A DNA stretch of 55,313 nucleotides from Candidatus Pelagibacter communis (lineage in GTDB: Bacteria > Pseudomonadota > Alphaproteobacteria > Pelagibacterales > Pelagibacteraceae). The notes below the pieces were generated by a model, which saw nothing but the letters and a program-made list of their open reading frames with translations, was not told the origin of the DNA and did no database searches. Of this stretch, positions 6,331 through 36,392 are shown piece by piece. How positions within the stretch are numbered: the first letter of the stretch is position 1; every line of letters starts with the position of its first letter. The translations under genes and the position numbers were made by a program. Location: positions 7,501 through 62,813 of the forward strand of contig CVSD01000053.1 of assembly GCA_001179885.1 (NCBI GenBank), in the 5' to 3' direction.

Positions 6331-6334
6331 CTTT

Positions 6335-6982
6335 ATGAAAGAGTATGATTTTAATTTTTTTGATTATTTTAAACCACCATTAAAAAATAAAGTTATTGGT
6401 TTAGCATTTAATTACAAAAGCCTTGTTGGTAAAGAAAACAAAAGTCAAGAACCTTTAATATTTCTAAAGTCAAGCACTAGCTTGATTTTTAATAATGAAG
6501 AAATAATTTATAATAATTTTTTTAAAAAAGTTTGGATAGAAGCTGAGCTATGCATTATAATTGGAAAAGAGGGTAAGAATATTAAGTCTAAAGATGCAAA
6601 AGAACATATTTTAGGATATACTTGTGGAAATGATGTTACTGCAGAAAATATTTTGAATAGGGATTGGCATTTAGCAAGATCAAAAGCTTCTGATACATTT
6701 GCCCCGATAGGACCAAAAATTATAAATGATATAGATACTTCAAATTTGAGAATTCAATCATTTATTAATGGAAAAAAAACACAAGACAGCACAACAAATG
6801 ACAGAATATTCAATGATTTTGAATGTGTGGAGCTAGTATCAAAATTTTTTAAATTAATTCCAGGAGATATTATTTTTACTGGTACTCCTGCTGGAGCTAC
6901 AGATGCTATAGTTAAACCAGGAGATGAAGTAACCATCGAAATAGAAAAAATAGGAAAAATAACTAATTCAATTAAAAGCTAA
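6335..6982 (+). CDS. fumarylacetoacetate hydrolase-family protein
   Basis: The 215-residue protein has the FAH core: KVIGLAFNYKS near the N-terminus, the metal-site E-x-E in WIEAELCIIIG, then YTCGNDVTAE, LARSKASDTFAPIGP and the C-terminal FTGTPAGA loop. The family splits C-C bonds or decarboxylates and hydrates 2-keto acids (acylpyruvase, oxaloacetate decarboxylase, 2-keto-4-pentenoate hydratase types). The protein consists of the catalytic domain only. It sits between the GAPDH-like gene and kdsB with gaps of 4 and 6 bases. In that setting it may act on a 2-keto sugar acid rather than in aromatic catabolism, but this is inference. Confidence 0.88.
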   Translation: MKEYDFNFFDYFKPPLKNKVIGLAFNYKSLVGKENKSQEPLIFLKSSTSLIFNNEEIIYNNFFKKVWIEAELCIIIGKEGKNIKSKDAKEHILGYTCGNDVTAENILNRDWHLARSKASDTFAPIGPKIINDIDTSNLRIQSFINGKKTQDSTTNDRIFNDFECVELVSKFFKLIPGDIIFTGTPAGATDAIVKPGDEVTIEIEKIGKITNSIKS

Positions 6983-6988
6983 TATTTG

Positions 6989-7720
6989 ATGAGACAGGTA
7001 ATAGTTATTCCAGCAAGAATGAAAGGAACTAGACTACCAGGAAAGCCCTTAATAAAAATTCTAAACAAACCAATGATTCAACATGTTTGGGAAAGATGTG
7101 AGCAAGTTATTAAAAGAGATGATATTTATGTTGCAACAGAAGATCAAGAAATAAAAAATTTTTGTCAAAAAAATAATATAAAATGTATTATTACCAAACC
7201 TGCAGAAACAGCTATTGATCGAATAAAATTATTTAGTGATGAGGTTGAAGCAGACTCTTATATAAACGTTCAAGGCGATGAACCAATTGTAAATATAGAT
7301 GATATAAAGTCTCTTTTGGACTATAATCTTAAATTTCCAGATAGGGTTGTATTTGGTAAGACAAATGCTAATGAACAAGAATTTTATGATTTTTCTAAAG
7401 CGAAAGTTGTTTGTGAAAAAAATGGAAGATTGCTTTATTCATCTAGAGCAGGAATACCATTAACCAACAAAGGAAAATTTTTTCAGGCAGAGAGGGCAAT
7501 TTGGCTATATGCATTCAACAAAATTTCTTTGAACAAATATTTTCAAAATTCTGGAAAAACTAATCTAGATCAAATTGAAGATAATGAAATAATTAGATTT
7601 TTAGAAATTGGTGTACCAGTTTATTGTATTGATATGATTGGAGATAGTTGGGCTGTTGATGAAAAAAAAGATATAGAAATTGTAGAAAATAGAATAAAAA
7701 GTTATGAAAAAAAAATATAA
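6989..7720 (+). CDS. kdsB: 3-deoxy-manno-octulosonate cytidylyltransferase (CMP-Kdo synthetase)
   Basis: KdsB activates Kdo with CTP to give CMP-Kdo. The N-terminal VIVIPARMKGTRLPGKPL motif, the INVQGDEPIV metal/CTP segment, YSSRAGIP and the C-terminal IEDNEIIRFLEIG helix are all typical. The length of 243 residues is normal. ATG 6989 is preferred over the TTG three bases before it. It overlaps the next gene by 17 bases. A second KdsB-like gene lies at 13127-13882. One may be the housekeeping enzyme and the other specific for another acidic sugar; the sequence does not say which. The neighbours here suggest a special substrate for this copy too. Confidence 0.85.
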   Translation: MRQVIVIPARMKGTRLPGKPLIKILNKPMIQHVWERCEQVIKRDDIYVATEDQEIKNFCQKNNIKCIITKPAETAIDRIKLFSDEVEADSYINVQGDEPIVNIDDIKSLLDYNLKFPDRVVFGKTNANEQEFYDFSKAKVVCEKNGRLLYSSRAGIPLTNKGKFFQAERAIWLYAFNKISLNKYFQNSGKTNLDQIEDNEIIRFLEIGVPVYCIDMIGDSWAVDEKKDIEIVENRIKSYEKKI

Positions 7721-8711
7721 AGTAGTAATTACTGATTATTTTAAAGACTCAATTATAGAAAAAAAGATATTTGGTAACAAAGCAGATATTATTTGCTTAG
7801 ATCAAATTGAAGAAGGCAAACTAACAGATGATATCAACGATGCTGATATTTTGTTAGTTTGGCATACAGAAATTAGTGAAAAAACTTTAGTAAGACTTAA
7901 AAATTGTAAAGCAATTATTAGATATGGTGTGGGTATTGATAATATAGATATTAAAAGTGCAAGATTAAAAAATATTGATTGTGCTAATACTCCTGATTAT
8001 GGCATTACAGAAGTTGCAGATACAACTTGTTCCATGATTTTAAATTTGGCTAGAAAAATTAATTTATATAATTTTAAGTGCAAGAAATACAAAAATGACT
8101 GGCAAGAAAATGTATTGGGTGAAAACCTTGAAAATCCCGTTAAGAGACTTAATGAACATAAGCTTGGAATTATAGGGCTAGGCAGAATAGGATCGTTAGT
8201 ATCAAAAAGAATGAAAGAATTTGGATTAGAAATAGGATTTTATGATCCCTATGTTGAAAAAAATCAAAATGAATTTTCTTTTTTAAAAAAATTTAATTCA
8301 ATCCAAGAACTGATCAATTTTTCTAGTATTATATCTGTAAATTGTGTTTTAAATAATGAAACAAAATCATTAATAAATTCATCTTTGATTAAAAAGATGA
8401 ATGATAATACAATTTTAGTTAATACAGCTAGAGGAAAGATAATTGAAAATTTAGACTGTTTAATGTTTGGATTAAAGTCTAAAAAAATTGGGGGATTAGG
8501 TTTGGATGTTTTACCTGAGGAACCACCAAATTTTAATGATGAATTAATTAATGCTTGGATTAATGAAAAACACCCAGATCATTCTAAAATAATTATTAAT
8601 CCACATTCCGCTTACTATTCAAGTAAATCGGTTATAGATATGAGAGAAAAAGCTTCTATAAATGCATTAAGAGTCTTGAATGGGGAAACAATTTTAAACA
8701 AAGTAAATTAA
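7704..8711 (+). CDS. D-2-hydroxyacid dehydrogenase (PGDH/CtBP-like)
   Basis: The two-domain NAD-dependent D-2-hydroxyacid dehydrogenase pattern is clear. It has RYGVGIDNID and NTPDYGITEVADTT in the substrate domain, the Rossmann motif GLGRIG followed by YDPY, and the catalytic Arg in VNTARG, Glu in LPEEPP and His in NPHSAYYS. The NPHSAYYSSKS ending resembles C-terminal-binding-protein-like members more than SerA, and there is no ACT domain at 335 residues. ATG 7704 overlaps kdsB by 17 bases. Together with the GAPDH-like protein it recalls the Epd-PdxB pair (aldehyde to acid, then hydroxyacid to keto acid), so it may form a 2-keto sugar acid. The substrate is unknown. Confidence 0.85.
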   Translation: MKKKYKVVITDYFKDSIIEKKIFGNKADIICLDQIEEGKLTDDINDADILLVWHTEISEKTLVRLKNCKAIIRYGVGIDNIDIKSARLKNIDCANTPDYGITEVADTTCSMILNLARKINLYNFKCKKYKNDWQENVLGENLENPVKRLNEHKLGIIGLGRIGSLVSKRMKEFGLEIGFYDPYVEKNQNEFSFLKKFNSIQELINFSSIISVNCVLNNETKSLINSSLIKKMNDNTILVNTARGKIIENLDCLMFGLKSKKIGGLGLDVLPEEPPNFNDELINAWINEKHPDHSKIIINPHSAYYSSKSVIDMREKASINALRVLNGETILNKVN

Positions 8712-8712
8712 A

Positions 8713-9720
8713 ATGAAGAAAGCAATTGTAATAGGTTTAGGAGGTATGGGTCAAAGATATATAAAAGCCCTAAATATATTGAACTATAAATTGGTAGGCA
8801 TTTGTGATCAGAAAAAAGAAAAACTTGAAAAATTTAATAATATTTCTTGTTTAAAAAAAACAAAATATAAAGATTTATTAAAATTAGATGCTGATATTGT
8901 ATGCATATCATCTAATACGTCCTCTAGAGAAAATATAATAAGAGATTTTTTTATTAAATCAAAAATCAATAAAATATTAACAGAGAAACCTCTTGCAACA
9001 TCTTATGAGAAAAGCTTAAAAATTTTAAGATTAATAAATAAAAATAAAAAAAAAAGAATTTTAGTTAATACTTTCAGGAGTCTTTCACCAAACTTCAAAA
9101 AAATTAAGAAAATTTTTTTAAAAAAAAAAGAAATAATTACTCATATCTCAATTATATCTCCTTCAGCTGGTCTTGGGAATATGGGATCAATTTTTTTTGA
9201 TTTATGTAATTATTTCTTAGATGAAAAAACGATATCTGTCAGCTGTCAAATAGATAAGACTGGCACAATTAATCCTAGAGGTAAACAATTTAAAGATCCT
9301 GGTGGTTATGGAATTGTAAAATATGATAATAATAAAAAAGTATTTTTTGATTTGAGTGAAAATACATCCATGCCATATCAAATAATTTTAAAAAGTAAAA
9401 ATTTAGAGGTTTATATAGATGAGATAAATAAAGAATTTATAATAAAGGAGAGACCGGAAAAACTTAAAAAAAAACCTACATATTATTACCTTTATAAACC
9501 CAACAAGAAAAGATTATTAAAAATGCAAAATTATGATGTAGTTGAATTAACAAAATATTCAATAAATGAATTGTTTAAAAGAAAATTTAAAAATAACATC
9601 AATCAATCAGTTAAAGCAATGGAAATAGTTTTTGGGTGCCATGCTTCAAAAAAAATAGAAAAAAATATAAGTTTTCCTTTAAAAAAAAGACATCATAAAA
9701 TTAATATTAATTTCCCATAG
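8713..9720 (+). CDS. Gfo/Idh/MocA-family oxidoreductase
   Basis: The N-terminal Rossmann fold has GLGGMGQRY at residues 8-16, and the family's hallmark EKP motif is at residues 91-93 (TEKPLATS). The rest is the alpha/beta C-terminal domain with a GNMGSIFFDLCNYFLD segment. The length of 335 residues is normal. Such enzymes oxidise or reduce ring hydroxyls of sugars and nucleotide sugars with NAD(P). It follows the 2-hydroxyacid dehydrogenase after one base and precedes the DUF4910 gene by three. This makes it part of the operon starting at 5287, where it probably modifies the same sugar. Confidence 0.85.
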   Translation: MKKAIVIGLGGMGQRYIKALNILNYKLVGICDQKKEKLEKFNNISCLKKTKYKDLLKLDADIVCISSNTSSRENIIRDFFIKSKINKILTEKPLATSYEKSLKILRLINKNKKKRILVNTFRSLSPNFKKIKKIFLKKKEIITHISIISPSAGLGNMGSIFFDLCNYFLDEKTISVSCQIDKTGTINPRGKQFKDPGGYGIVKYDNNKKVFFDLSENTSMPYQIILKSKNLEVYIDEINKEFIIKERPEKLKKKPTYYYLYKPNKKRLLKMQNYDVVELTKYSINELFKRKFKNNINQSVKAMEIVFGCHASKKIEKNISFPLKKRHHKININFP

Positions 9721-9723
9721 ATA

Positions 9724-10998
9724 ATGAACAAAAAATTAAATTTTAAAATGATGAAGTGGGCTAAAGACTTATTTCCAATATGTAGAAGTCTTACTGGAGA
9801 AGGAAATAGAAAAACTTTGAGATATTTAAAAAAAATTAATAAAAATTTTAAAATTAAAAACTTCAAATCCGGAGAAAGGTTTTATGACTGGAAGATACCT
9901 CTTGAGTGGAAAATAAAAGATGCGTATATTCAAGATAAATTTGGATCAAAAATTGTTGATTTTAAAAAAAATAATCTTTATGTCTTAAACTATTCAATTC
10001 CAATAAAAAGAAAGTTAAACTTCTCAAGACTTAAAAAAAATATTTTTACCTTAAAAAAGAGCCCATCACTAATACCTTATACAACATCTTATTACAAAAA
10101 TAGATGGGGTTTTTCTATGGAATATAAAAAGTTTAAAAGATTAAGAAACAATCAAAAATTTGATGTATTAATTGATAGCAAACATTTTAAAGGTAAAATG
10201 GATTATGCTGAACTAGTAATAAAAGGAAAAAGTAAAAAAACTATTTTAATTTGTTCATATATTTGTCACCCATCGCTAGCAAATAATGAACTTTCAGGAC
10301 CATTAGTATTGACTGCTCTTTCTAAAATCTTAAAACCCTCAAAGTATACAATTAAACTATTATTAATCCCTGAAACAATAGGTGCGATAGCATATATTAA
10401 TAAAAACATAAATTTTTTAAAACAAAATCTAGTAACAGGAATAAATATTTCATGCGTAGGGGATAAAGGAAAATTTTCTTTAATATCATCACTTAATGAA
10501 AATACATATGCAGATAAAGTATGTCTAAGGATTTTGAAAAATAAAAAATTTAAGAAATATTCTTTTTTAGACAGGGGTAGCAATGAAAGGCAGTTTGGTT
10601 GTCAAAACTTAAACTTGCCTTTTGTAACTATTTGTAGGAGCAAATTTGGAGACTATAAACAGTATCATACATCTGCTGACAATTTAAAACTTTTGACTGA
10701 AAAAAATCTTAGAGAAAGTGCTTTTTTAATAAAAGAGATTGTTGACGAAATCCAAAAAAACAAAATATTTTTAAAGCAAACAACATGTGAACCTTTTTTA
10801 ACTAAATATAATTTGGTAAATTTAATTGGTGGACCCCAAAAAAAAAAATATTTTGAAGAAGTTCAAAATATAATTGCTTATGTGGGAAAAGACTTTGATA
10901 TTAAAGAATTAAGTTTAAAATTAAAAATAAATTTTAAAAAAATTTTTAAGATTATGATGCATTTAAAAAAAAAGAATATCTTAAAAGAATTTATATAA
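9724..10998 (+). CDS. DUF4910/DUF2172 aminopeptidase-like protein
   Basis: The opening (KDLFPICRSLTGEGNRKTLRYL...SGERFYDWKIP) is diagnostic of the DUF2172/DUF4910 family, an M28-peptidase-like domain found in polysaccharide clusters. The zinc-site segments CSYICHPSLANNELSGP and YHTSADNL are present. A C-terminal winged-helix-like part (about residues 355-424) follows, as in full-length relatives. The length of 424 residues is typical. The family's substrate is unproven; it may remove an acyl or amino-acid group from a sugar rather than cut peptides. It is the last plus-strand gene of the set, and the next gene converges on it with a 2 base gap. Confidence 0.85.
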   Translation: MNKKLNFKMMKWAKDLFPICRSLTGEGNRKTLRYLKKINKNFKIKNFKSGERFYDWKIPLEWKIKDAYIQDKFGSKIVDFKKNNLYVLNYSIPIKRKLNFSRLKKNIFTLKKSPSLIPYTTSYYKNRWGFSMEYKKFKRLRNNQKFDVLIDSKHFKGKMDYAELVIKGKSKKTILICSYICHPSLANNELSGPLVLTALSKILKPSKYTIKLLLIPETIGAIAYINKNINFLKQNLVTGINISCVGDKGKFSLISSLNENTYADKVCLRILKNKKFKKYSFLDRGSNERQFGCQNLNLPFVTICRSKFGDYKQYHTSADNLKLLTEKNLRESAFLIKEIVDEIQKNKIFLKQTTCEPFLTKYNLVNLIGGPQKKKYFEEVQNIIAYVGKDFDIKELSLKLKINFKKIFKIMMHLKKKNILKEFI

Positions 10999-11000
10999 AT

Positions 11001-12158
11001 TTAATTTAGAATTTTATTTATTATTTTAAAAAAAATTTGATTATTTTCATCAAATTGGATAACTTTTTTTAATTTTTTAAATTCTTTAATCCACTCATTT
11101 TTTTTTCCTTTTATTACAAAATTAAATATTCTTTTGAATTCCTTAGGACTATTTTCTACAGTCCAATATTTTCCATTTTTATTTAAGTTTTCATTCCAAC
11201 CGAACTTTCTTGTAGATAATGGATAAGAATTTGGTGTATTACCTATGAAACCAGTTCTTCCACCTCTTGCTAAATTTTCGAGGCCCAAAGTAGAGTCAAT
11301 TGCAAAAACATATTCAAACTTGTCTAACAATTTGTAGGTTTCTCGTTTATCACTTGCAGGAAAATAATTAAATTTAATTTCTTTTAGATTTTGTTTATAG
11401 TAGTCTTCTTCAATTATTCCTGCTATACCAAAATTTTTTCCAATTATATTTATTTTCAGATTATTTTTTCTAGAATACATCGCTAACCACTTAAGAAAAA
11501 AATTAAAATTTTTATTATAATATCCCCATGTTAAATTGGATGCATAAATTTGATTTTCTTTAAGAGCTCTAAAACTTGAAATAAAACATATTTCCTTGAT
11601 TTTTTTTTTTAATGTTTTTTTTTGAAAATTATTTTTAAAAGAACCTATTGAACGAATAGTTCCATTTATAAATGAATTATATTTAATTCCATAAAAATCA
11701 TTGATAACAAACATAAAATCGACTGTGTATTTTTTTTTCTTTTTTTTCTTAGTAAAATTTTTTCTATAAAAATTATCAGCAAAAAAATGACATCTCATTC
11801 CCGGTTGTATAAATATTGTTTTAGCTTTTATATTTTCTTTTAACATCCAGAATTTTTTTGAGTTATCAATCAATGACAAAACAATTTTAGGATCAGATTC
11901 ATTAATATAATGTTTATAATATTCCTGAGAGTTTATTTTGAAATTCATTAGACACTTAAATAAAATAAAAATATTTATTTTTTCAAAGTTAGTGTGAATA
12001 ACTTCAAAACCTACATCAGCTAAATATCTTTTAAAAAATTTTGAATTTATTCTTTTAAATCCTAAATTGTTAAATCCCAAAATTTTACATTTATTTGGTC
12101 TTCTAAATATCCATTTTGCTTTAAAAAATTTAAATAATAAATTGAAAAAATTATTCAT
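11001..12158 (-). CDS. putative surface-carbohydrate biosynthesis protein (GT-B-like)
   Basis: This is a 385-residue soluble protein of no firm family. Segments such as TIFIQPGMRCHFFADNF, then DFMFVINDFYGIKYNSFI and later KYLLDKFEYVFAIDSTLGLENLARG, resemble the two Rossmann halves of GT-B-like surface-carbohydrate proteins (the TIGR04396 type) that bind a nucleotide sugar with a late Asp-Ser-Thr-Leu-Gly-Leu-Glu loop. I did not identify catalytic residues. It is one of three minus-strand genes in the plus-strand island and is transcribed from the 225 base divergent region at its right. A glycosyltransferase or polyglycerol-phosphate-like transferase are both possible. Confidence 0.5.
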   Translation of the reverse strand: MNNFFNLLFKFFKAKWIFRRPNKCKILGFNNLGFKRINSKFFKRYLADVGFEVIHTNFEKINIFILFKCLMNFKINSQEYYKHYINESDPKIVLSLIDNSKKFWMLKENIKAKTIFIQPGMRCHFFADNFYRKNFTKKKKKKKYTVDFMFVINDFYGIKYNSFINGTIRSIGSFKNNFQKKTLKKKIKEICFISSFRALKENQIYASNLTWGYYNKNFNFFLKWLAMYSRKNNLKINIIGKNFGIAGIIEEDYYKQNLKEIKFNYFPASDKRETYKLLDKFEYVFAIDSTLGLENLARGGRTGFIGNTPNSYPLSTRKFGWNENLNKNGKYWTVENSPKEFKRIFNFVIKGKKNEWIKEFKKLKKVIQFDENNQIFFKIINKILN

Positions 12159-12383: not shown

Positions 12384-13130
12384 GTGAAAAAAGATTTAAC
12401 AAAAAAAATTGTGTTTATTACTGGTGCGGGGAAAGGTATCGGAAAATCATTAGTGACTAGTTTACTTGAAAGTGGGGCATATGTTTATGCTTTAACAAAA
12501 TCTAACAAAACTTTAGATGATTTAAAAAAAAATAAAAACTTAAAGATATTTTATGGAAACGTAAATAATTTACAACTTATTAAAAAAATTTTCAATTTTT
12601 CAAAAAAAAATAAAAGGTTAATAAATTCGGTTGTGAATAATGCTGGTATGAGACAACGAAAAAAATTTGAAAAAATATCTTCACAAGACCTTGAGGATAT
12701 TTTTAAAGTCAATTTTTTTTCTATTTTTAAAATAATGCAAGAATTTGCAATATATTCAAAAAAAAATAAAATTAAATCCTCAATAGTAAATATAGGTTCA
12801 ATTGTTGGAGAAAATGGATTTAAAGAACTATCTGGCTATGCATCTACTAAAGGAGCGTTAAAAAGTTTAACAAAATCTTTTGCAATTGAATATGCAAAAG
12901 AAAATATAAGAGCGAATATTATAAATCCAGGATTCATTAAAACGTCATATTATGATGATTTCAAATCAAAAAAAAAAAAATTATATAATTGGACTTTAAA
13001 AAAAACTCCTATGGGTAGATGGGGAACTTCTTCTGAAGTTGTAAGTTTAATTGAGTTTTTGATTTCTGATGAATCAAGTTATATGACTGGTGCCACAATT
13101 AATGTTGATGGAGGTTGGTTAAGTTCATGA
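12384..13130 (+). CDS. short-chain dehydrogenase/reductase (SDR)
   Basis: This is a classical SDR of 248 residues: the cofactor motif TGAGKGIG at residues 13-20, NNAG at 85-88, catalytic Ser139, Tyr152 and Lys156 (YASTK), and the C-terminal TGATINVDGG. It oxidises or reduces a hydroxyl or ketone with NAD(P). It starts at GTG and is the first gene of the long plus-strand run, with its TGA overlapping the ATG of the KdsB-like gene. A second SDR follows three genes later. The context (cytidylyltransferase, cyclase, radical SAM enzyme) suggests it modifies a ring position of a carbocyclic or keto sugar. Confidence 0.88.
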   Translation: MKKDLTKKIVFITGAGKGIGKSLVTSLLESGAYVYALTKSNKTLDDLKKNKNLKIFYGNVNNLQLIKKIFNFSKKNKRLINSVVNNAGMRQRKKFEKISSQDLEDIFKVNFFSIFKIMQEFAIYSKKNKIKSSIVNIGSIVGENGFKELSGYASTKGALKSLTKSFAIEYAKENIRANIINPGFIKTSYYDDFKSKKKKLYNWTLKKTPMGRWGTSSEVVSLIEFLISDESSYMTGATINVDGGWLSS

Positions 13131-13882
13131 AAAATAAAAAAAAAATTTTGGCATTAATTCCTACTAGACTTAACTCTAGAAGATTACCAGCTAAAGCACT
13201 ATTACCTATAAATAATTTACCATTAATTATGCATGTTTATAAAAGAGTAAAATTATCTAAAAAAGTTGATGATGTAATTATATGTTGTGATGACAAAAAA
13301 ATCTCTAAAGTGGTCAAAAAATTTGGTGCCAATGTTATGCTTACGTCAAAGCATCATCAAAATGGGACAGATAGAATTTGTGAGGGATATAAAAAAATAA
13401 AAAAAAATTATGACTTAGTTTTAGATGTTCAAGGTGACGAGCCACTTATCAGTCCTATTCATATTGATAAGGTAATTGAATTTCACTTAAAAAATTTAAG
13501 TTATGATATTATTTTACCTAATTTAAAAATAAAAGCCACAAACAATACTAATATAGTTAAGATTGTATCAAATAAAAAAAATGAGGTAATGTATATATCA
13601 AGAGCTAATATTCCCTATGAATTTAAATTTAAAGTTCCATTTTTTAAAAAACATTTATCTGTAGTTTCCTTTAAACCAGAATCTTTATTAAAATTTGGTA
13701 AATCTAAAAGATCTGATTTGGAAAAATCTGAAGATATTGAGTTAGTGAGAGCATTAGATTTGGGAATGAAGATAAAAACAATAAATTTAAAAGGTGATAG
13801 TTTTTCTGTAGATGTTTTTGAAGATTATACAAAAGCTCAATCTCAAATACAAAAAGACAGATATCTTAAGTTTTATAGGTAA
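13127..13882 (+). CDS. KdsB-like cytidylyltransferase (second copy)
   Basis: The protein shows the KdsB fold: LIPTRLNSRRLPAKAL at the N-terminus, LVLDVQGDEPLI in the metal/CTP site, YISRANIPY, and the LEKSEDIELVRALDLG helix. It is more divergent than the copy at 6989. For example, the usual H-x-GIYaYR segment reads HLSVVSFK, which hints at a different acceptor sugar. I chose ATG 13127, coupled to the preceding TGA; an upstream TTG at 13115 is less likely. It is followed after 3 bases by the cyclase gene. Activation of a cyclitol phosphate or of an acidic sugar by CTP are both possible. Confidence 0.8.
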   Translation: MKNKKKILALIPTRLNSRRLPAKALLPINNLPLIMHVYKRVKLSKKVDDVIICCDDKKISKVVKKFGANVMLTSKHHQNGTDRICEGYKKIKKNYDLVLDVQGDEPLISPIHIDKVIEFHLKNLSYDIILPNLKIKATNNTNIVKIVSNKKNEVMYISRANIPYEFKFKVPFFKKHLSVVSFKPESLLKFGKSKRSDLEKSEDIELVRALDLGMKIKTINLKGDSFSVDVFEDYTKAQSQIQKDRYLKFYR

Positions 13883-13885
13883 TAA

Positions 13886-15007
13886 GTGAAGCTAAAATAC
13901 AAAATACATGATAATCAGCATCAAATATATTTTTGTAAAAAAAAAGAACTTCATAAAATAACTGAATGCCTAGAAAAATCAAATTCAGATAAAAATATCT
14001 TGTTTGTTTATGATGACAATGTAAACAAAAAAATTGTAAATAATATATTGGATGAACTAAATTCATTTGGTTGTAATTTATTTGTAATGGAATGCAAAGG
14101 AAGTAAGCAAAATAAAAATGAAAAGTTTTTATTCAAAATACTTGATATTTTGCTTAAAAATAAATTTACCAAAAAATCTATAATTATTTCATTTGGTGGT
14201 GGTGTCGTTGGTGATGTAACTGCATTAGCTAGTAGCTTGTATTTAAGAGGTTTAATCTATTTTTGTATACCCACTACAATGACCGCAATTGTTGATAGTT
14301 CAATAGGTGGCAAAACAGCCATAAATTATAAAGGTGTAATAAACTCTATTGGAAATTATTATCATCCAAATACTGTTTTTATTTTAGAGGAAACTGTAAA
14401 AGAAATTCCTGATAGAGAGTATTTTGCAGGTTTTGCTGAAATCATTAAATGTGGATTGATCGGTAAAAATAAAATTTTAACATTTCTTGAGGAAGAAAGA
14501 AGTGGTTTAATAAATAGAAAAATTGAAAAAGTTTTTAAAATTTGTTTGATGACATTGGACACAAAAATTAAGTTTTTTTCTGGAGATATTTATGAAAAAA
14601 ATCTTCGTTTAATGTTGAATTTTGGCCATACTTTTGCTCACGCAATTGAGATGGCAATTGAAAATAATCTTAAAAAAGATTTTATAAGACATGGTGAAGC
14701 TGTCGGAATAGGTATCTTATGTGAGATATATTATTCAAATAAAAAAAAAAATAACTTATTTAAAAGTGTTTTTAATTTTTTAAAAAGTTTTAATTTACCA
14801 GTCAATTTAGATAATTCGAATATTCCAATTAAAAAAATAAAAATTCAAAACGAAATTTATAAAAATCTTTTTTTGGACAAAAAAAAAGTTGATAAACATC
14901 CTCGATATATTAGTTTAAAAAAAAAAGGCGATCCATCAATTAAAGAAATGAAAGATTATGACTTTATAAATGATACTATTTTACAAGTTATTTTTGAAGA
15001 CAAATGA
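13886..15007 (+). CDS. dehydroquinate-synthase-like sugar phosphate cyclase
   Basis: The 373-residue protein belongs to the sugar phosphate cyclase family (DHQ synthase, 2-deoxy-scyllo-inosose synthase, epi-valiolone synthases). The NAD-binding GGGVVGD is at residues 104-110, followed by PTTMTAIVDSSIGGKTA. The metal ligands are Glu185 (FAEIIK), His252 (AHAIE) and His269 (RHGEAV). The segment that reads GKN in DHQ synthase is VIN here (residues 151-153), so one conserved active-site lysine is an isoleucine, hinting at another substrate. It starts at GTG, and its TGA overlaps the radical SAM start by four bases. Location between sugar genes argues against a plain shikimate-pathway aroB, though that cannot be excluded without the rest of the genome. 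Confidence 0.85.
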   Translation: MKLKYKIHDNQHQIYFCKKKELHKITECLEKSNSDKNILFVYDDNVNKKIVNNILDELNSFGCNLFVMECKGSKQNKNEKFLFKILDILLKNKFTKKSIIISFGGGVVGDVTALASSLYLRGLIYFCIPTTMTAIVDSSIGGKTAINYKGVINSIGNYYHPNTVFILEETVKEIPDREYFAGFAEIIKCGLIGKNKILTFLEEERSGLINRKIEKVFKICLMTLDTKIKFFSGDIYEKNLRLMLNFGHTFAHAIEMAIENNLKKDFIRHGEAVGIGILCEIYYSNKKKNNLFKSVFNFLKSFNLPVNLDNSNIPIKKIKIQNEIYKNLFLDKKKVDKHPRYISLKKKGDPSIKEMKDYDFINDTILQVIFEDK

Positions 15008-15915
15008 AAGATAAAATTAATTTAAAATATTTTGATCCTCAAATTACAGTAAAAGATAAAGCTGTTGGAGATAGATTGCAATTTATACCTGGAACAAAAA
15101 TACCAATGCCATCTGAAATCGAAATAAGTGAGTCAGGAATGTGCAACAGAAAGTGTCATTTTTGCCCTAGAAGTGATCCTGATTATGAACATGTAAATCA
15201 ATTTATAAAAAATTCATTATTTGAAAAACTATGTAACGAATTAAAAGATTTAAATTTTGCAGGACTTTTTATTTTTTCTGGTTTTGTAGAACCCTTATTA
15301 GACAAAAATATCTACAATTTAATTAGCTATGCAAAAAAAACTTTGCCTTCTGCAAGAGTTGAAATAATTACGAATGGTGATGTATTAAATTTAAAAAGAT
15401 TAAAAAAACTTTATGATTCTGGATTAGATAGAATGCAGGTAAGTTTGTATGATGGAGAACATCAAAATGAGGTATTTATTCAGATGGGAAAAAAACTCAA
15501 TCTTACTGAGGATCAATATGTTTTAAGAGCAAGATATCTTCCTGAAGAAAAAAATTTTGGCATCACATTGACTAATAGAGGTGGAATGCTAGAAAATGCT
15601 GATTATAAAATTCCAGCTAGATCAACTAGCTTAAAGCAAGTTTGTTATTATCCAAGTTATAAATTTTTTTTAGATTATAATGGAGATGTTTTAATGTGTT
15701 CACATGATTGGGGAAAAAAAAATATTCTTGGTAATTTAAATAAAGAAAAATTAGTAGATATTTGGTTGTCAAAAAAATGGAAAGAAACTAGAAAATTACT
15801 TAGTAATGCAGATAGATCAATAAAACCTTGTAATGTATGTGATGTATCTGGAACACTAATAGGAAAAAAACATTTTGAAAGTTGGGAAAAAATTATTAAT
15901 GAAAAAAAAAACTAA
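15004..15915 (+). CDS. radical SAM/SPASM-domain enzyme
   Basis: The [4Fe-4S]-binding motif CNRKCHFC supplies Cys47, Cys51 and Cys54, followed by strands typical of a radical SAM barrel (FSGFVEPLLDKN, ARVEIITNGD). A C-terminal SPASM-like region has further cysteines in VCYYP, VLMCSHDW, and the pair in KPCNVCDVSG, to bind extra clusters. Length is 303 residues. SPASM enzymes include dehydrogenases such as BtrN, which oxidises an aminocyclitol made by a cyclase related to the preceding gene product. That makes oxidation or epimerisation of a cyclitol a sensible guess, though many SPASM enzymes act on peptides. ATGA overlap with the cyclase gene shows tight coupling. Confidence 0.85.
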   Translation: MKDKINLKYFDPQITVKDKAVGDRLQFIPGTKIPMPSEIEISESGMCNRKCHFCPRSDPDYEHVNQFIKNSLFEKLCNELKDLNFAGLFIFSGFVEPLLDKNIYNLISYAKKTLPSARVEIITNGDVLNLKRLKKLYDSGLDRMQVSLYDGEHQNEVFIQMGKKLNLTEDQYVLRARYLPEEKNFGITLTNRGGMLENADYKIPARSTSLKQVCYYPSYKFFLDYNGDVLMCSHDWGKKNILGNLNKEKLVDIWLSKKWKETRKLLSNADRSIKPCNVCDVSGTLIGKKHFESWEKIINEKKN

Positions 15916-16627
15916 TAAAAAAGTTTTAATTCTGGGAGCTAGTTCAGATATTGGAATTGAGATCTTAAAGATTTACTTAAAAAATAATTATTTTATAATT
16001 GCACATTATTCTAAAGGTAATCAAAAATTTTTTGATTTTATAAAGAAAAATGAATCTAAAATAAAAAAGACTAAATTTAACTTTATTTCTAATTATAATA
16101 AAATAGAAAATTTTTTAAAAAAAAAAGAACATTTGTCAGCTGATGTTATTGTGAATGCCCTTGGTTATGTTCAGCAAATAGATTACAATAATCTTAAAAT
16201 TTCGGATATTGATAAAAGTTTTAAAGTAAATTTATACCCAGGCATTTATTTAACCAGTCGAGTGGGTGAAGAAATGATTAAAAAAAAATGGGGTAGAATA
16301 GTGAATCTTGGCTCAATTGGAGTTAAATTTGGAGGTGGTATGAGCAATTTACCATATTCTCTATCAAAGTTTGGTTCAGAATTTTTTCCCAATAATACAA
16401 AAAAATGGATAAAAGATAATGTATTTATAAATACATTAAGAGTTGGTGCAACAAATACAAAATTACATAAAAATCTCCCAAGTAAAAACCTAAAAAAAAG
16501 AGCTGATCTTATTCCAATTAAAAGAATGGCAAATCCAAAAGAAATAGCTGAATTTGTTTTTTTTATAGGTTCTGAAAAAAATACTTATATATCACATCAA
16601 GTAATTTCTATTTCTGGTGGTGAATAA
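15899..16627 (+). CDS. short-chain dehydrogenase/reductase (SDR)
   Basis: The protein has the SDR cofactor motif GASSDIG near the N-terminus, NALG, catalytic Ser in NLGSIG and YSLSK as the Tyr-Lys pair, and ends in SISGGE as in FabG-like reductases. ATG 15899 overlaps the radical SAM stop by 17 bases; a TTG 24 bases upstream is less likely. Length is 242 residues. It is the second SDR of this five-gene block and probably catalyses another ketone/alcohol step of the same product. The substrate cannot be read from the sequence. Confidence 0.85.
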   Translation: MKKKTNKKVLILGASSDIGIEILKIYLKNNYFIIAHYSKGNQKFFDFIKKNESKIKKTKFNFISNYNKIENFLKKKEHLSADVIVNALGYVQQIDYNNLKISDIDKSFKVNLYPGIYLTSRVGEEMIKKKWGRIVNLGSIGVKFGGGMSNLPYSLSKFGSEFFPNNTKKWIKDNVFINTLRVGATNTKLHKNLPSKNLKKRADLIPIKRMANPKEIAEFVFFIGSEKNTYISHQVISISGGE

Positions 16628-16633
16628 GAATAA

Positions 16634-17950
16634 ATGAGTAATAAAGTTTTAGAAAATATTAATCAAACTAAAAATTATTTAGATAATTTTTTATCTGATA
16701 AATATGGGCCAGAATTTAATTCAGCTATTTATCTAGCATCTTATACTAATTCTGTAGGTAACGTTTTTTTAAAAAAAATTTTTAGAGTAAGTGATAAGAG
16801 TTTCTTTAAAAATATTTTTTTGGATATTATTTCAGGTTTGAAAATCTCTGGAAAAATTATTAAAAATGATACAATAGAGAAAAAATTTTCAAAAATTGTT
16901 TTTAGCTGGGGTTTTAAAAAAAACTTTGAAGATAACGGAAGTTTTAATGATAAATATTTCAATATTAATTCAGCAAAAAAAAATAATTTTTTATGGTTCA
17001 TAATCTATATGGATAAAAAAATTCCCGATAAAATAGATAAAAATATAGTTATATTTAAAGTCTACGGAAATTTACTTTTAAATTTTTTTTCTTGGTTAAA
17101 ATTTATTTTGATAAATTTCAAATTTCTCTTTAAGGGTATTGATTATTTTTTACATAATATATCAAGTTCAAATTTTTTATCTAAAAAACTGATTAATTCA
17201 TCAAAAGAAATTTTTTCAAAAGATTTTGATGAAATTTTATTTCCATATGAGGGTCAACCTTTTCAAAATGAAATAATTAAATATTTTAAAAAAAAAAAAA
17301 ATAAAGTTATAAGTATTGGCTATATTCATTCACCTCCGTTAGCTGTACCAACAAATTTTATTTATAAAGATAGTTGCCCAGATAAAATTTTTTTAAATGG
17401 ATCAGATCAACGATTTTGTTTTGAGAATATTCTTGGATGGCCAAGTAAAAAAATTGTTGAAATTCCATCATTAAGATTTAATGAAATTGCTGAGGATATT
17501 GAAGACTCAATTTTTTTTCCAAATGTGATTAATCAACCAGAGAAAATTTTGGAAAGTTTAATTTACATTAATAATAATATTATTGAATTAAATAATTTTA
17601 ATATAAGAAATCATCCAGCATCATTAAAAAATAAAACAAATTTAGAATTAATAAAAAAAATAAAAGAAAAATTTAATATTAAAGATAATAAAACAATTAA
17701 TTTTAACAAAAAATTGATTTTTATAGGTAATTCTGGAGCAATAATTGAGTCGTTAGAAAGAGGATATGATGTGATACAAATTTGTGAAAATTCTTCTTTT
17801 GATTTTTATTCAAACAATGTTTGGAAAAGTATTAAATCAGAGCTAATAGCAAAAGATATTTACGCATATAGATTAAAAGAAAAAGGAAATCTGATTTCTT
17901 TTGGTAAAATCGATACTAATATAGATACAATATTGAATGATAAAAAATAA
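16634..17950 (+). CDS. uncharacterised protein, possible glycosyltransferase
   Basis: I do not recognise a firm family. The protein is 438 residues and soluble apart from one hydrophobic stretch near residues 145-165. In its second half it has ILFPYEGQPFQNEII, then IGYIHSPPLAVPTNF, KIFLNGSDQRFCFENILGWP and RNHPAS. These resemble the nucleotide-sugar side of GT-B-like surface-carbohydrate proteins, where a predicted helix and an H-P loop follow. A run of 14 A (17288-17301), the longest I saw, lies inside the frame. It is spaced 6 bases after the SDR and 3 before rfbG, so it belongs to the same transcript. Glycosyltransferase is a guess from context. Confidence 0.5.
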   Translation: MSNKVLENINQTKNYLDNFLSDKYGPEFNSAIYLASYTNSVGNVFLKKIFRVSDKSFFKNIFLDIISGLKISGKIIKNDTIEKKFSKIVFSWGFKKNFEDNGSFNDKYFNINSAKKNNFLWFIIYMDKKIPDKIDKNIVIFKVYGNLLLNFFSWLKFILINFKFLFKGIDYFLHNISSSNFLSKKLINSSKEIFSKDFDEILFPYEGQPFQNEIIKYFKKKKNKVISIGYIHSPPLAVPTNFIYKDSCPDKIFLNGSDQRFCFENILGWPSKKIVEIPSLRFNEIAEDIEDSIFFPNVINQPEKILESLIYINNNIIELNNFNIRNHPASLKNKTNLELIKKIKEKFNIKDNKTINFNKKLIFIGNSGAIIESLERGYDVIQICENSSFDFYSNNVWKSIKSELIAKDIYAYRLKEKGNLISFGKIDTNIDTILNDKK

Positions 17951-17953
17951 AAA

Positions 17954-19033
17954 ATGAATTTCACAAAATATTATAAAAATAAAAAGGTTTTAATCACTGG
18001 TCATACAGGTTTTAAAGGTGCTTGGCTCACATTATGGTTAATAAAATGTGGAGCCAAAATCATGGGATTATCAAATAATACATTAACAAAACCATCAATT
18101 TTTAAAGTGTTAAAAATTAAAAAAAAAATATCGCACGTTAATTGCGATATTAGAAATATAAAAAAACTTGAAAATGAAATATTAAATTTTAAACCGGATT
18201 TTGTTTTTCATTTTGCAGCACAAGCATTAGTTAAAAAATCCTTTTTAGAGCCATATAATACTTGGACTACTAATTCGCTAGGTACAATTAACGTTCTAGA
18301 AGTATTGAGAAGAAACAATTTTACCAGGAAAATAACTGCTGTAATAATTACTAGTGATAAAAGCTATAAGAATATTGAAAAGCAAAAAGCTTATATTGAG
18401 ACCGATACTCTTGGAGGCTCAGATCCATATAGTGCTTCGAAGGCTTCAGCTGAATTAGCACTAAAATCTTACGTAGATAGTTTTTTAAAAAAAAAAAAAG
18501 ATGTTTTAGTTGGTATTGCTAGAGCAGGGAATGTAATTGGTGGAGGAGATTGGTCTGATGATAGGTTAGTTCCTGACTGTATTAAATCATGGAGTCAAAA
18601 AAAATCAGTGGTCATAAGAAATCCAAAATCAACAAGACCTTGGCAACATGTTTTGGAAGCAATAAGAGGTTACTTAATTTTTGGCATTAAACTAAAAAAT
18701 AATAGAAAATTAGATGGGGAAGTTTTTAATTTTGGACCAAATAATAAGTTAAATCATAATGTTGAAGATTTAGTAAAAAAAATTAAAATTTTTTGGAAAA
18801 ATATCAAATGGATTGTCAAACCAGATAAATTAAAATTAGAGTCTAATCTCTTAAAAATAAATTCAAATAAAGCAAAAAAAAAATTAAATTGGCAATGTAT
18901 TTTAACTTTTTCTGAAACAGCAGAATATGTTTCAAAATGGTATATTAATTACTTCAATAAACATACAAATATGTTTGATTACTCACTAGAACAAATTTCA
19001 TCATATGAAAAAAAAATTAGGAGTAAAAATTGA
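17954..19033 (+). CDS. rfbG: CDP-glucose 4,6-dehydratase
   Basis: RfbG converts CDP-glucose to CDP-4-keto-6-deoxyglucose. The protein has the very characteristic KVLITGHTGFKGAWLTLWL start with the GHTGFKG motif at residues 16-22. ALVKKSFLEPYNTWTTNSLGT, TSDKSY and the catalytic YSASK (GGSDPYSASKASAEL) follow. The 359-residue length is standard. Its TGA stop overlaps the TTG start of rfbF, the gene providing its substrate. The product is the branch point for 3,6-dideoxyhexoses and other CDP-linked deoxysugars; the only obvious downstream enzyme is the epimerase-like gene at 19718. Confidence 0.93.
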   Translation: MNFTKYYKNKKVLITGHTGFKGAWLTLWLIKCGAKIMGLSNNTLTKPSIFKVLKIKKKISHVNCDIRNIKKLENEILNFKPDFVFHFAAQALVKKSFLEPYNTWTTNSLGTINVLEVLRRNNFTRKITAVIITSDKSYKNIEKQKAYIETDTLGGSDPYSASKASAELALKSYVDSFLKKKKDVLVGIARAGNVIGGGDWSDDRLVPDCIKSWSQKKSVVIRNPKSTRPWQHVLEAIRGYLIFGIKLKNNRKLDGEVFNFGPNNKLNHNVEDLVKKIKIFWKNIKWIVKPDKLKLESNLLKINSNKAKKKLNWQCILTFSETAEYVSKWYINYFNKHTNMFDYSLEQISSYEKKIRSKN

Positions 19034-19728
19034 AGGTTGTTATTTTAGCAGGTGGATTGGGTACTAGAATTAAAGAATATACAAAAACAATCCCAAAGCC
19101 AATGATTAGAGTTCATGGAAAACCTTTAATTGAACATATTATGCAACACTATTCAAACTTTGGATTTAAAGAATTTTATATTGCCCTTGGATATAAGGGC
19201 GAGGTAATAAAAAAATACTTTAAGAAAAGAAAAAAGAATTGGAAAATAAACTTAATTCCAACAGGAAAAACAACAATGACTGGAGGAAGAATTAAAAGAT
19301 TAAAAAGATACTTAAAAAATGAAACGTTTTTATTGACTTATGGGGATGGAATTGCAAACGTTAACTTAAAAAAATTAGTAAGTTTTCATAAAAAATATAA
19401 TAATATTGTTACTTTAACTTCAGTAAGACCTCCTGCAAGATTTGGTTCCGTAAAATTTAAGAATAATAAGATAATAAAATTTAGGGAAAAATCATCTCTA
19501 GATGAGGGGTGGATAAATGGAGGCTTTTTTGTCATGGATCCAAAAATTTTTAATTATTTAAAAAATGATAGAACATATCTAGAAAGATATCCCCTAGAAG
19601 CTATTTCTAAAAAAAACTTATTGGGTGGTTATAAACATACAGATTTTTGGCAGTGCATGGATACAGCAAGAGATAAAGAAATATTAGAAAAAGCTTTTAA
19701 AAAAGGGTTAATTAATTTTGATAAATAA
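19030..19728 (+). CDS. rfbF: glucose-1-phosphate cytidylyltransferase
   Basis: RfbF makes CDP-glucose from glucose-1-phosphate and CTP. The N-terminus has the nucleotide-binding LAGGLGTR (residues 6-13) followed by IPKPMIRVHGKPLIEHIM, and the rest includes LTYGDGIANV, RPPARFG and DEGWINGGFFVMDP, as in known RfbF proteins. It is 232 residues, slightly shorter than the usual 255 or so. Translation starts at TTG within the rfbG stop (TTGA), so the two genes are coupled. It overlaps the next gene by 11 bases. Confidence 0.92.
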   Translation: MKVVILAGGLGTRIKEYTKTIPKPMIRVHGKPLIEHIMQHYSNFGFKEFYIALGYKGEVIKKYFKKRKKNWKINLIPTGKTTMTGGRIKRLKRYLKNETFLLTYGDGIANVNLKKLVSFHKKYNNIVTLTSVRPPARFGSVKFKNNKIIKFREKSSLDEGWINGGFFVMDPKIFNYLKNDRTYLERYPLEAISKKNLLGGYKHTDFWQCMDTARDKEILEKAFKKGLINFDK

Positions 19729-20638
19729 TAAAAAAAATATTTTAATTGTAGGTGGCACAGGTTTTATTGGGGCAAATCTTTGTAAATCAATACCAAAAAA
19801 AAATTTTAATGTTTTCTCTTGCTCAACAAAAAAACCTAATAAATTGAATAAATTATCAGGTGTGAAGTACATTCAGTGCGATATATCTAAAAAAAAACAA
19901 ATTAAAAAAAAGTTAAATAGAAAATTTGATTATATTGTGAATTTGTCTGGATATATTGACCATTCTAATGCAAAAAAAGTAAAATTATCTCATTATCAAG
20001 GTTGTATAAATTTAGCAAATTTTTTTAAAAAAAAAAAAATAAAAAAGTTTATTCAATTTGGAAGTAGTGTAGAATATGGTTTTTCTAGAAGTCCCCAGAA
20101 CGAAAAAAAAATCTTATCTAGCAAAAAACTTAAATCTAATTATGGAAAAGCTAAAAATGACTCTACAAAATATTTATTAAAACTACTTAAAGAAGACAAT
20201 TTTCCCGTAGTTATTTTTCGACTTTATTTGGCTTACGGTCCTGGACAAAACATTAAAAGATTGATTCCATTTATAATTAAAAAATCCTTAGAAAATAAAA
20301 AATTTCCTTGTTCAAATGGGAAACAAGTAAGAGATTTTGTTTATGTTAAGGACATAATCAGATTAATTAAAAAATCATTAAAAAAAAATTTTTATGGAAT
20401 ATATAATTTAGGATCTGGAAAACCTATTAAAGTTAAAAATGTAATAATTAAAATTATCAGAATTATTGGAAAAGGAGAACCAGATTTCGGAAAAATTAAA
20501 CTTAGAAATGATGAACCATTAATTTTATTTCCAAATATACAAAAAGTTAAAAAACATTTTAATTGGAAACCAAATGTAAATATTGATCAAGGTTTAAAAA
20601 AAACAATTAATTTTTATAGAAATGAGATATTCAGTTAG
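19718..20638 (+). CDS. NAD-dependent epimerase/dehydratase, probably CDP-sugar reductase or epimerase
   Basis: This extended SDR has GGTGFIG at residues 12-18, FGSSVEYG, the catalytic pair in YGKAK, and RLYLAYGPGQ and RDFVYVKDI later in the chain. At 306 residues it is typical of nucleotide-sugar 4-reductases and 4-epimerases. It starts at TTG inside rfbF and directly follows rfbG-rfbF. The likely job is therefore reduction or epimerisation of CDP-4-keto-6-deoxyglucose, as in abequose or related pathways. No RfbH-type C-3 deoxygenase is visible, so a CDP-6-deoxyhexose is more likely than a 3,6-dideoxy sugar. It overlaps the next gene by 17 bases. Confidence 0.8.
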   Translation: MINNKKNILIVGGTGFIGANLCKSIPKKNFNVFSCSTKKPNKLNKLSGVKYIQCDISKKKQIKKKLNRKFDYIVNLSGYIDHSNAKKVKLSHYQGCINLANFFKKKKIKKFIQFGSSVEYGFSRSPQNEKKILSSKKLKSNYGKAKNDSTKYLLKLLKEDNFPVVIFRLYLAYGPGQNIKRLIPFIIKKSLENKKFPCSNGKQVRDFVYVKDIIRLIKKSLKKNFYGIYNLGSGKPIKVKNVIIKIIRIIGKGEPDFGKIKLRNDEPLILFPNIQKVKKHFNWKPNVNIDQGLKKTINFYRNEIFS

Positions 20639-36020: not shown

Positions 36021-36136
36021 GCCTGGTAATTATAGCGAAGAGGTAATACCCGATCCCATTCCGAACTCGGAAGTCAAGCTTTTCAGCGCCGATGGTACTT
36101 TGTCTTAAGACATGGAAGAGTAGGACTTTGCCAGGC
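36021..36136 (+). rRNA. rrf: 5S ribosomal RNA
   Basis: The 116 base sequence starts GCCTGG and ends with its complement CCAGGC, giving helix I. Between them lie the conserved elements of 5S rRNA: the CCCGATCCCATTCCGAACTCGGAAG block forming loop B and helix III, and GCGCCGATGGTACT plus GGAAGAGTAGG near the 3' end. The 16S and 23S genes are not in the window. In SAR11 genomes, as I recall, 5S is separated from 23S by hypervariable region 2, and this gene sits exactly at the island edge. The next coding gene starts 14 bases later. Confidence 0.95.
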
Positions 36137-36276: not shown

Positions 36277-36281
36277 TTTTT

Positions 36282-36392
36282 ATGGATAATGAAAACCACA
36301 AAAATACGTGGAATAATTTTACCAAGTTTGTGTTGTGGGGAACTGTCGCGGTAATATTAGTTTTGGTTTTAATGGCCATATTCTTACTGTAA
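36282..36392 (+). CDS. aa3-type cytochrome c oxidase subunit IV-like small membrane protein (36 aa)
   Basis: A 36-residue frame follows rpmJ after five bases. It encodes a short polar N-terminus (MDNENHKNTWNNF) and one hydrophobic helix (VLWGTVAVILVLVLMAIFLL). The arrangement, with W-x-x-F-x-K-F-x-x-W-G before the helix, is that of the bacterial aa3 oxidase subunit IV family found ahead of pntA in many alphaproteobacteria. It lies in the inner membrane. The stop is nine bases before pntA. Confidence 0.75.
   Translation: MDNENHKNTWNNFTKFVLWGTVAVILVLVLMAIFLL

Follow-up and report, generated by a model that had tools for sequence, protein, structure and literature searches.

In a 55,313-nucleotide stretch of Candidatus Pelagibacter communis (contig CVSD01000053.1, positions 7,501 to 62,813 of the forward strand; here called the window), three adjacent genes encode a short-chain dehydrogenase (SDR1), a cytidylyltransferase resembling the synthetases of CMP (cytidine monophosphate)-activated ulosonic acids (KdsB2) and a protein of the dehydroquinate (DHQ) synthase family (CYC). 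These genes form a core unit that recurs on one strand, contiguous and in the order SDR1-KdsB2-CYC, at all 13 cyclase loci compared, with gaps of -26 to +33 bases. The loci are the window itself, eleven others from a family search of 297 SAR11-family genomes (L032-L042) and one further locus from a single-cell genome (L045), and the contiguity of the first three genes at every one of them points to a link beyond chance. A preliminary description of the window had taken five genes as one block, adding a radical SAM gene and a second short-chain dehydrogenase (SDR) gene, but that pair proves to be an exchangeable module found mostly without CYC, and the core unit consists of three genes, not five. 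On the basis of gene content and active-site residues we tentatively favour, with a little less than even confidence, a route in which a shikimate-type acid would be cyclised, reduced, activated with CMP, tailored and transferred into the O-chain. The genes concerned are:

12384..13130, + strand: SDR1, short-chain dehydrogenase of 248 residues (PF13561, 1.8e-48), first gene of the triad
13115..13882, + strand: KdsB2, CMP-ulosonate-synthetase-like cytidylyltransferase of 255 residues (PF02348, 3.1e-43), TTG start with an ATG at 13127
13886..15007, + strand: CYC, DHQ-synthase-family phospholyase/cyclase of 373 residues (PF01761/PF24621)
15004..15915, + strand: BtrN-like radical SAM/SPASM protein, an optional tailoring module (family profile, BtrN matches in the PDB)
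15875..16627, + strand: SDR2, short-chain dehydrogenase and partner of the radical SAM protein (PF13561, 5.7e-20), TTG start with an ATG at 15899
16634..17950, + strand: X438, candidate glycosyltransferase for a CMP-activated acid (predicted GT-B-like fold, histidine-proline (HP) pair), beyond the five genes of the preliminary description
17954..20638, + strand: genes resembling those of CDP-glucose 4,6-dehydratase, glucose-1-phosphate cytidylyltransferase and an epimerase (names presumed from the look of the sequences)
36022..36136, + strand: 5S rRNA, right-end marker of the O-chain cluster (Rfam RF00001, 91.1 bits)

Pfam and NCBIfam models bear out the five + strand open reading frames of the preliminary description and their assignment, in order, to SDR, KdsB-like, DHQ-synthase-like, radical SAM/SPASM and SDR families. 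The genes also overlap or lie at most 3 bases apart, as it had said (spacings of the longest frames -16, +3, -4 and -41 bases). Since the frames at 13115 and 15875 start with TTG and have in-frame ATGs 12 and 24 bases downstream, the true overlaps may be shorter. X438 follows SDR2 after a gap of 6 bases.

The three-gene unit and its relatives

SDR1 stands directly upstream of KdsB2, and KdsB2 before the cyclase, at 13 of 13 loci. The neighbours of CYC orthologues are thus not unrelated, the same two upstream genes being kept, with a more diverged SDR in L035 (46% identity). SDR1 may act as a reductase of the cyclase product. A cyclase at least 47% identical to CYC occurs in 12 of the 297 genomes, the home genome included, and a 13th genome (G211) has one at 35%. 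Close KdsB2 relatives (E<1e-120) are present in 14 genomes, among them all 12 with CYC.

Similar gene sets accompany more distant cyclases. L043 combines an SDR and a cyclase 34% identical to that of the window with a PseF-like CMP-transferase, and the SAR11 loci L221 and L248 combine a KdsB-like gene and an SDR with cyclases 28% and 32% identical to CYC that resemble TIGR04425; at L249 an SDR and a cyclase stand at a contig end. On TIGR04425 the cyclases of L221, L248 and L249 reach 350-390 bits (cut-off 400), and members above the cut-off were found in 4 of 349 other genomes of the phylum searched. As in the window, the DHQ-synthase-like gene of these four loci adjoins an SDR (4/4), and a KdsB/PseF-like gene of the CTP_transf_3 family lies nearby in two (L208, L210); L211 stops at the contig edge. 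The TIGR04425 loci differ from the window in their SIS, Gfo/Idh and 2-hydroxyacid dehydrogenase genes, and CYC is 23-26% identical to two of the members. The set of SDR, DHQ-synthase-like gene and CMP-transferase thus recurs with cyclases 23-34% identical to CYC (L043, L208, L210, L221, L248). Across 21 loci the SDR either adjoins the cyclase (8) or has just the CMP-transferase gene between itself and the cyclase (13), a CMP-transferase being nearby in 18. The NCBI name of TIGR04425, 'AroB-related putative sugar phosphate phospholyase (cyclizing)', implies that its curators already suspected such enzymes, and the route is partly anticipated by that model.

No relative of CYC was found at E<=1e-65 in 397 other genomes of the phylum. 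In a pattern search, L045 (Pelagibacteraceae AG-447-E07) was the only clear member of the CYC group among the matches listed (80 loci), which were mostly aroB; as aroB swamped this search, one of whose two patterns was generic, it measures the rarity of CYC outside SAR11 poorly. Viral contigs gave no CYC orthologue, and phage and plasmid collections (15 and 115 records) gave no protein of at least 60% identity to CYC. The annotations seen in the latter were mostly 3-dehydroquinate synthase, sedoheptulose 7-phosphate (SH7P) cyclase or 2-deoxy-scyllo-inosose (DOI) synthase, some records having none. Four IMG/VR viral contigs (L125-L128) do carry DHQ-synthase-like genes, beside an SDR-like gene in L128 and with an SDR-like and a weakly KdsB-like gene nearby in L127. 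The Sodalis praecaptivus plasmid pHS1 carries an aminoglycoside-like cluster (L130, 3724-8297), in which a gene annotated as 2-deoxy-scyllo-inosose synthase is accompanied by genes for a glycosyltransferase, a PIG-L deacetylase and a radical SAM/SPASM protein.

Active site and ancestry of the cyclase

As the preliminary description had noted, CYC has the nicotinamide adenine dinucleotide (NAD) motif GGGVVGD and the aligned metal ligands E185, H248 and H269, and reads VIN, with Ile152, where DHQ synthases read GKN. It scores 255.9 bits on the AroB equivalog TIGR01357 and 169.6 bits on TIGR04425, below the respective cut-offs of 305 and 400. The best Foldseek matches of its predicted structure (predicted local distance difference test, pLDDT, 90.9) are DHQ synthases; the first DOI synthase ranks 22nd and ValA 33rd. 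In the Staphylococcus aureus enzyme the pocket for 3-deoxy-D-arabino-heptulosonate 7-phosphate (DAHP) is described as Asp130, Lys136, Asn146, Glu178, Lys181, Lys221, Arg235, Asn239, His242, His246 and Lys314 (PMC6262012). By alignment CYC has all 11 (D137, K143, N153, E185, K188, K227, R241, N245, H248, H252 and K332), as do the other 12 members of its group; spacing is identical within D130-K181 and within K221-H246, and the distances between segments are 39 vs 40 and 80 vs 68. The S. aureus list is the published one, and the A. nidulans numbering that accompanies it in our alignment is presumed.

Two annotated DOI synthases have A/G, E and N in place of R235, N239 and K314, where CYC keeps R, N and K. 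Two annotated SH7P cyclases, which belong with the valiolone and gadusol enzymes to the same superfamily as CYC, differ at five positions (K221, R235, N239, H246 and K314 replaced by M, K/E, D, P and V/A), all kept in CYC. A Gloeothece protein annotated as DHQ synthase, with four pocket differences, was excluded from this comparison, its activity not being stated. The L043 cyclase differs at one pocket residue, and the SAR11 TIGR04425-like proteins and that of L211 share a single change, Lys181 to His. The kept pocket, including the residues altered in the DOI and SH7P cyclases tested, indicates that the substrate of CYC is a carboxylated, DAHP-type ulosonate 7-phosphate, not a hexose or neutral heptulose phosphate, and it disfavours the analogy to DOI and valiolone synthases that had been drawn in the preliminary description. 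The product would be a carbocycle. The position of the GKN lysine is Ile or Thr in all 13 group members, the window included, and Val in the divergent L043; it is the sole position of 17 tabulated that is changed across the whole group, and the other aligned outsiders except L043 retain the lysine. We dropped the idea that Ile152 marks a DOI- or valiolone-type activity, as the DOI and SH7P cyclases tested retain the lysine too.

In a phylogeny of the kind proposed with the preliminary description, the CYC group forms its own clade (support 100/100). The home genome has a second DHQ synthase gene, adjoined by a gene that we take, by recognition, to be shikimate kinase (aroK), and the encoded AroB pairs in the tree with that of another Pelagibacteraceae genome (96/90). 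All 13 genomes with CYC or an L043-type cyclase have two DHQ synthase matches (E<=1e-5); for 8 of the 13 the second is among the matches listed, at 33-38% identity and E<=1e-40. These data support CYC being distinct from the genome's own AroB: it shares with AroB the predicted fold, the NAD and metal motifs and the 11 pocket residues, but differs in its equivalog score, its Ile or Thr for the GKN lysine, its separate clade, its place away from aroK and the presence of the other aroB in the genome. Of the 13 cyclase genomes, 10 have a class II DAHP synthase gene and 12 a single PF00793 gene; these genes lie on contigs other than that of the cyclase or over 100 kb from it. In G005 the PF00793 gene lies between genes that we presume to encode CTP (cytidine triphosphate) synthase and enolase, and because of these flanks we take it to be kdsA.

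Two aspartates of KdsB bind Mg (PMC3149649). KdsB2 has the corresponding CTP/Mg motifs (IPTR...RLPAK, QGDEP and SVD), with Glu at the second Asp in L041, and matches KpsU (1gq9) at 3e-31; it scores 220 bits on NF003952, above the cut-off of 193, and 141.3 on the KdsB equivalog TIGR00466, below 155.2. Several positions of its C-terminal domain are unlike E. coli KdsB, whose contacts to Kdo (3-deoxy-D-manno-octulosonic acid) are presumed. The CTP_transf_3 enzymes known to us act on alpha-keto-acid sugars. By analogy, the window system appears to operate in the manner of a CMP-ulosonate pathway, its front end being of the DHQ synthase type: it shares with the KdsB, KpsU and NeuA pathways a CTP_transf_3 enzyme and a predicted GT-B-like transferase with an HP pair, and differs in having a DHQ-synthase-like cyclase and an SDR where those have KdsA/KdsC or NeuB.

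Tailoring module and candidate transferase

The only PDB matches of the radical SAM family profile at E<=1e-5 are to BtrN (4m7t/4m7s, about 1e-33); the window protein alone also matched 7wzv (2.7e-4). The compound that BtrN oxidises is 2-deoxy-scyllo-inosamine, and four cysteines ligate the enzyme's single auxiliary cluster (PMC9012708). The CxxxCxxC motif and the auxiliary-domain residues C214, C232, C276 and C279 are invariant in 7/7 relatives. R192 of the window protein aligns, by our own count, with BtrN Arg152, to which we presume a role. By analogy, the protein may perform a BtrN-type oxidation of a cyclitol hydroxyl to a ketone. It is encoded in 36 of the 297 genomes, 7 of which have CYC. 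At 15 of 15 loci examined (drawn from the 36 genomes by profile match, not at random) its gene shares a gene run with one of two partners, an SDR2-like gene in seven (the window, L032, L035, L179, L189, L221 and L223) and a HisC-like aminotransferase gene in eight (L037-L040, L180, L181, L184 and L190). L033 and L034 have a different SPASM protein, and L041 has another one, with an aminotransferase 33% identical to that of L037. The simplest reading of this pattern would be that a ketone is formed by oxidation and is then either reduced or aminated. Radical SAM and SDR2 together are an exchangeable module that is not tied to CYC; the use of the radical SAM gene as proof of a carbocycle was dropped, the gene occurring also in clusters without CYC. 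The BtrC/BtrN pair of butirosin biosynthesis likewise joins a DHQ-synthase-family cyclase to a BtrN-type radical SAM enzyme, and the sister loci would share its oxidise-then-aminate logic. The window differs in the partner (SDR2, or a HisC-like aminotransferase elsewhere), the CMP activation, the O-chain setting and in CYC residues that are absent from the two DOI synthases tested (BtrC itself lies outside the alignment).

X438 has no Pfam or NCBIfam match. Its model, made with 10 members of the family (pLDDT 79.8), has a GT-B-like arrangement, as a prediction only. In VIA-align, UDP-GlcNAc 2-epimerases, which we take to share a GT-B-like fold, come first (Z 12.4), and polysialyltransferase 5wc6_A ranks 17th (Z 10.9, 261 residues aligned, root mean square deviation 4.7). 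H327-P328 and E206 are invariant in 10/10 members. In the sialyltransferase PmST1 both the phosphate of CMP and the carboxylate of the sugar are contacted by the histidine of the HP motif (PMC2169525), and the HP motif is common to beta-Kdo transferases (PMC10148158). X438 is presented as a candidate GT-B transferase using a CMP-activated acid. It occurs in 43 of the 297 genomes, and a CMP-transferase-type gene lies within 7 kb of it at 32 of the 33 loci examined (of 43 genomes), the exception being L190. Several of these genes are Pfam-confirmed; the distance is 6.8 kb in L181 and 4.8 kb in L221, and the matches in L215, L222 and L224 are weak (32-44 bits) and outside the Pfam check.

Beside X438, 9 of the 33 loci carry an HMGL-type protein (three Pfam-confirmed) whose nearest model is 4-hydroxy-2-oxovalerate aldolase, below its cut-off. 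These SAR11 clusters (L179, L180, L189, L212, L213, L220, L223, L226 and L227) combine the HMGL-type protein, of 515-541 residues, with a KdsB-like gene and X438, with or without radical SAM, L179 having also a HAD hydrolase. Aldolases of the 4-hydroxy-2-oxovalerate type make 2-keto acids from pyruvate, and the HMGL clusters may encode a further way to a CMP-activated 2-keto-3-deoxy acid. Because X438 and a CMP-transferase also stand beside HMGL-type proteins, CYC and SDR1 look like one of several front ends feeding the same back end of CMP activation and transfer. Two further loci (L182 6464-7720; L183 2206-3447) encode a protein that resembles MaoC in one part (weakly so in L182) and, weakly, an SDR in another; a close KdsB2 and X438 lie near it, in stretches that hold neither CYC nor SDR1.

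Proposed route and its alternatives

In the route that we favour, CYC would take DAHP or a close ulosonate 7-phosphate analogue, oxidise C5, eliminate phosphate and re-reduce, and the product would close, as in DHQ synthase, to a six-carbon ring keeping a tertiary hydroxyl and a carboxylate, a dehydroquinate-type acid. SDR1 would reduce the ring ketone to give a quinate-type acid, and KdsB2 would put CMP on the hydroxyl beside the carboxylate, the same head group as in Kdo. The radical SAM protein would, like BtrN, oxidise one ring hydroxyl to a ketone for SDR2 to reduce back, probably with inversion, whereas in the sister loci the aminotransferase would give an amine instead; this tailoring could come before or after activation. 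X438 would then transfer the residue from CMP into the O-chain. Protein families, pocket residues, conserved gene order and module swaps can be read directly from the sequences, and from them we infer every reaction, the exact substrate, the tailored hydroxyl and the ring closure. Of the earlier proposal of a CTP-activated cyclitol built into the surface glycan, the dedicated non-AroB enzyme of the DHQ synthase family, its gene-order tie to a CMP-transferase and the surface-glycan cluster are supported, but the neutral cyclitol and the DOI/valiolone analogy are not. A wider and more doubtful claim, though still a real possibility, is that SAR11, with TIGR04425-type relatives in the phylum, may drain DAHP from the shikimate pathway through a dedicated DHQ-synthase-like enzyme to a quinate-type acid, with CMP on the tertiary hydroxyl, BtrN-like tailoring and an undescribed GT-B family leading to the O-chain.

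A number of observations weigh against this route. Normal glycosyl transfer is stabilised by a ring oxygen that is absent from a carbocyclic donor, which would make transfer from a CMP-quinate-type compound chemically demanding, and with the conserved GKN lysine missing, the activity of CYC may differ. Approximately unbiased tests (39-row set) do not reject union of the CYC group with SAR11 AroB (0.248), DOI synthases (0.508) or SH7P cyclases (0.271); as none of the three sister groups is rejected, we used active-site residues instead of phylogeny. No dedicated DAHP synthase was found in the cluster, and the home genome (667 kb, 55% complete) yielded neither a DAHP synthase nor a PF00793 gene. 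G015 and G271 have close KdsB2 and X438, in stretches lacking CYC and SDR1, preceded by a protein whose N-terminal part weakly resembles MaoC; the stretches fetched around the triad of L036, L042 and L045 show no X438 and no radical SAM gene; and the TIGR04425 locus L209 has no CMP-transferase nearby. As for X438, its top Foldseek matches, TagF and WbnH (E about 1e-4), have a weak TM-score of about 0.3, and its linkage to CMP-transferases (32/33) is counted at loci chosen by profile match, not at random. In the D/E-D/E-G motif described for HP-motif transferases (PMC2169525), X438 has an invariant Glu and a Gly in 8/10 members, and the first acidic residue is absent.

The main rival, which we consider somewhat unlikely, is that CYC is a non-cyclising phospholyase: the enol formed from DAHP would be protonated, SDR1 would reduce the 6-ketone to a 3,7-dideoxy-heptulosonic acid pyranose, and KdsB2 would activate its anomeric carbon. 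This non-cyclised 3,7-dideoxyheptulosonate fits the chemistry of KdsB2 and X438 better, being an ordinary ulosonic acid donor for KdsB2 and a sialyltransferase-like X438 with its HP pair; it would also explain the back end shared with aldolase-like front ends and the active site altered at the GKN lysine. It needs a new activity of CYC, however, and the characterised members of the DHQ synthase family known to us are cyclases. Of the reactions of DHQ synthase, those that follow the redox step are considered mostly spontaneous (PMC7144000), so that protonation would require a gained function, none being visible in the sequence. CYC could also be a plain second DHQ synthase, making dehydroquinate, or a horizontally acquired aroB, with KdsB2 and X438 serving an unrelated Kdo-like acid. 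The 11/11 DAHP-pocket residues, the L043 cyclase at 320.2 bits on the aroB equivalog (cut-off 305) and the occurrence of KdsB2 and X438 without CYC in L182 and L183 would all agree with this, yet we hold it unlikely, given the full aroB in the genome, the triad at 13/13 loci, the recurrence of the combination with other cyclase lineages and the TIGR01357 score of the window protein below the cut-off.

The original model, in which a hexose or heptulose phosphate would yield a neutral DOI- or valiolone-like cyclitol for CMP activation, now appears quite improbable. It has in its favour the common enzyme family and a BtrN-like partner as in butirosin biosynthesis (PMC9012708), but CYC keeps all pocket residues that are altered in the DOI and SH7P cyclases tested, and BtrN-like genes occur mostly without CYC. 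The preference of CTP_transf_3 enzymes for alpha-keto-acid sugars, as far as we know it, also speaks against a neutral product. Scarcely probable, finally, is a feed other than DAHP, an ulosonate phosphate from an aldolase or synthase outside the cluster that would give a ring of unexpected configuration. Beside the TIGR04425-type cyclases of L208, L210, L211 and L248 stand SIS-domain genes (below cut-off as GmhA-like in L211 and L248) and Gfo/Idh genes that resemble inositol 2-dehydrogenase, again below cut-off, which hints at other sugar-phosphate inputs in that branch; but the window block has no recognised gene for such a feed, and CYC has the 11 pocket residues of DHQ synthase.

If the cyclised, CMP-activated acid is correct, nucleotide-activated cyclitols would gain a new class, and a shikimate intermediate would have a fate that is new. 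SAR11 bacteria number among the planet's most abundant cells, and the chemistry behind their O-chain variation is little known; our analysis suggests that one building block of their coat may be an unusual, possibly carbon-ringed acid. The recurring set of SDR, DHQ-synthase-like protein and CMP-transferase gives experiments a concrete route to test by which central metabolism could supply an unusual surface acid, proposes a function for the hypothetical family TIGR04425, and adds X438 as a candidate transferase family and an exchangeable radical SAM epimerase/aminase module. We found no description of a route from a DHQ-synthase-like enzyme to a CMP-transferase in the open-licence literature, and the words dehydroquinate, radical SAM, cytidylyltransferase and cyclitol are absent from the main text of the Pelagibacterales O-chain paper (PMC11898729).

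Genomic setting and neighbouring genes

O-chain clusters of Pelagibacterales, which are highly diverse between strains in SAR11, are reported to end at the 23S and 5S rRNA genes and, when complete, to have 23.8% G+C (PMC11898729). In the window, G+C rises from 22.9% in bases 1-36000 to 29.0% beyond the 5S rRNA; the left-end marker, the 23S rRNA, falls outside the window. As the 5S rRNA marker and the low G+C match the published clusters, the five-gene block most likely lies inside an O-chain island. The CDP-sugar genes at 17954..20638 (+), which we named by the look of their sequences and outside the family searches, probably belong to a neighbouring route for a different residue; their homologues flank many of the compared loci.

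Upstream of the block, on the opposite strand, 11001-12158 encodes a member of TIGR04441 (222 bits, cut-off 150), a putative Leptospira O-antigen family. Just past the 5S rRNA, at 36278-36339, lies a pntA small RNA (Rfam RF01810, 78.4 bits). The run 5287-10998 comprises GAPDH-like, FAA-hydrolase, second KdsB-like (6986-7720), 2-hydroxyacid dehydrogenase, Gfo/Idh and DUF4910 genes, and is possibly a second CMP-acid route. The TIGR04425 cyclase of L208 likewise has genes for KdsB, a 2-hydroxyacid dehydrogenase and Gfo/Idh at its sides.

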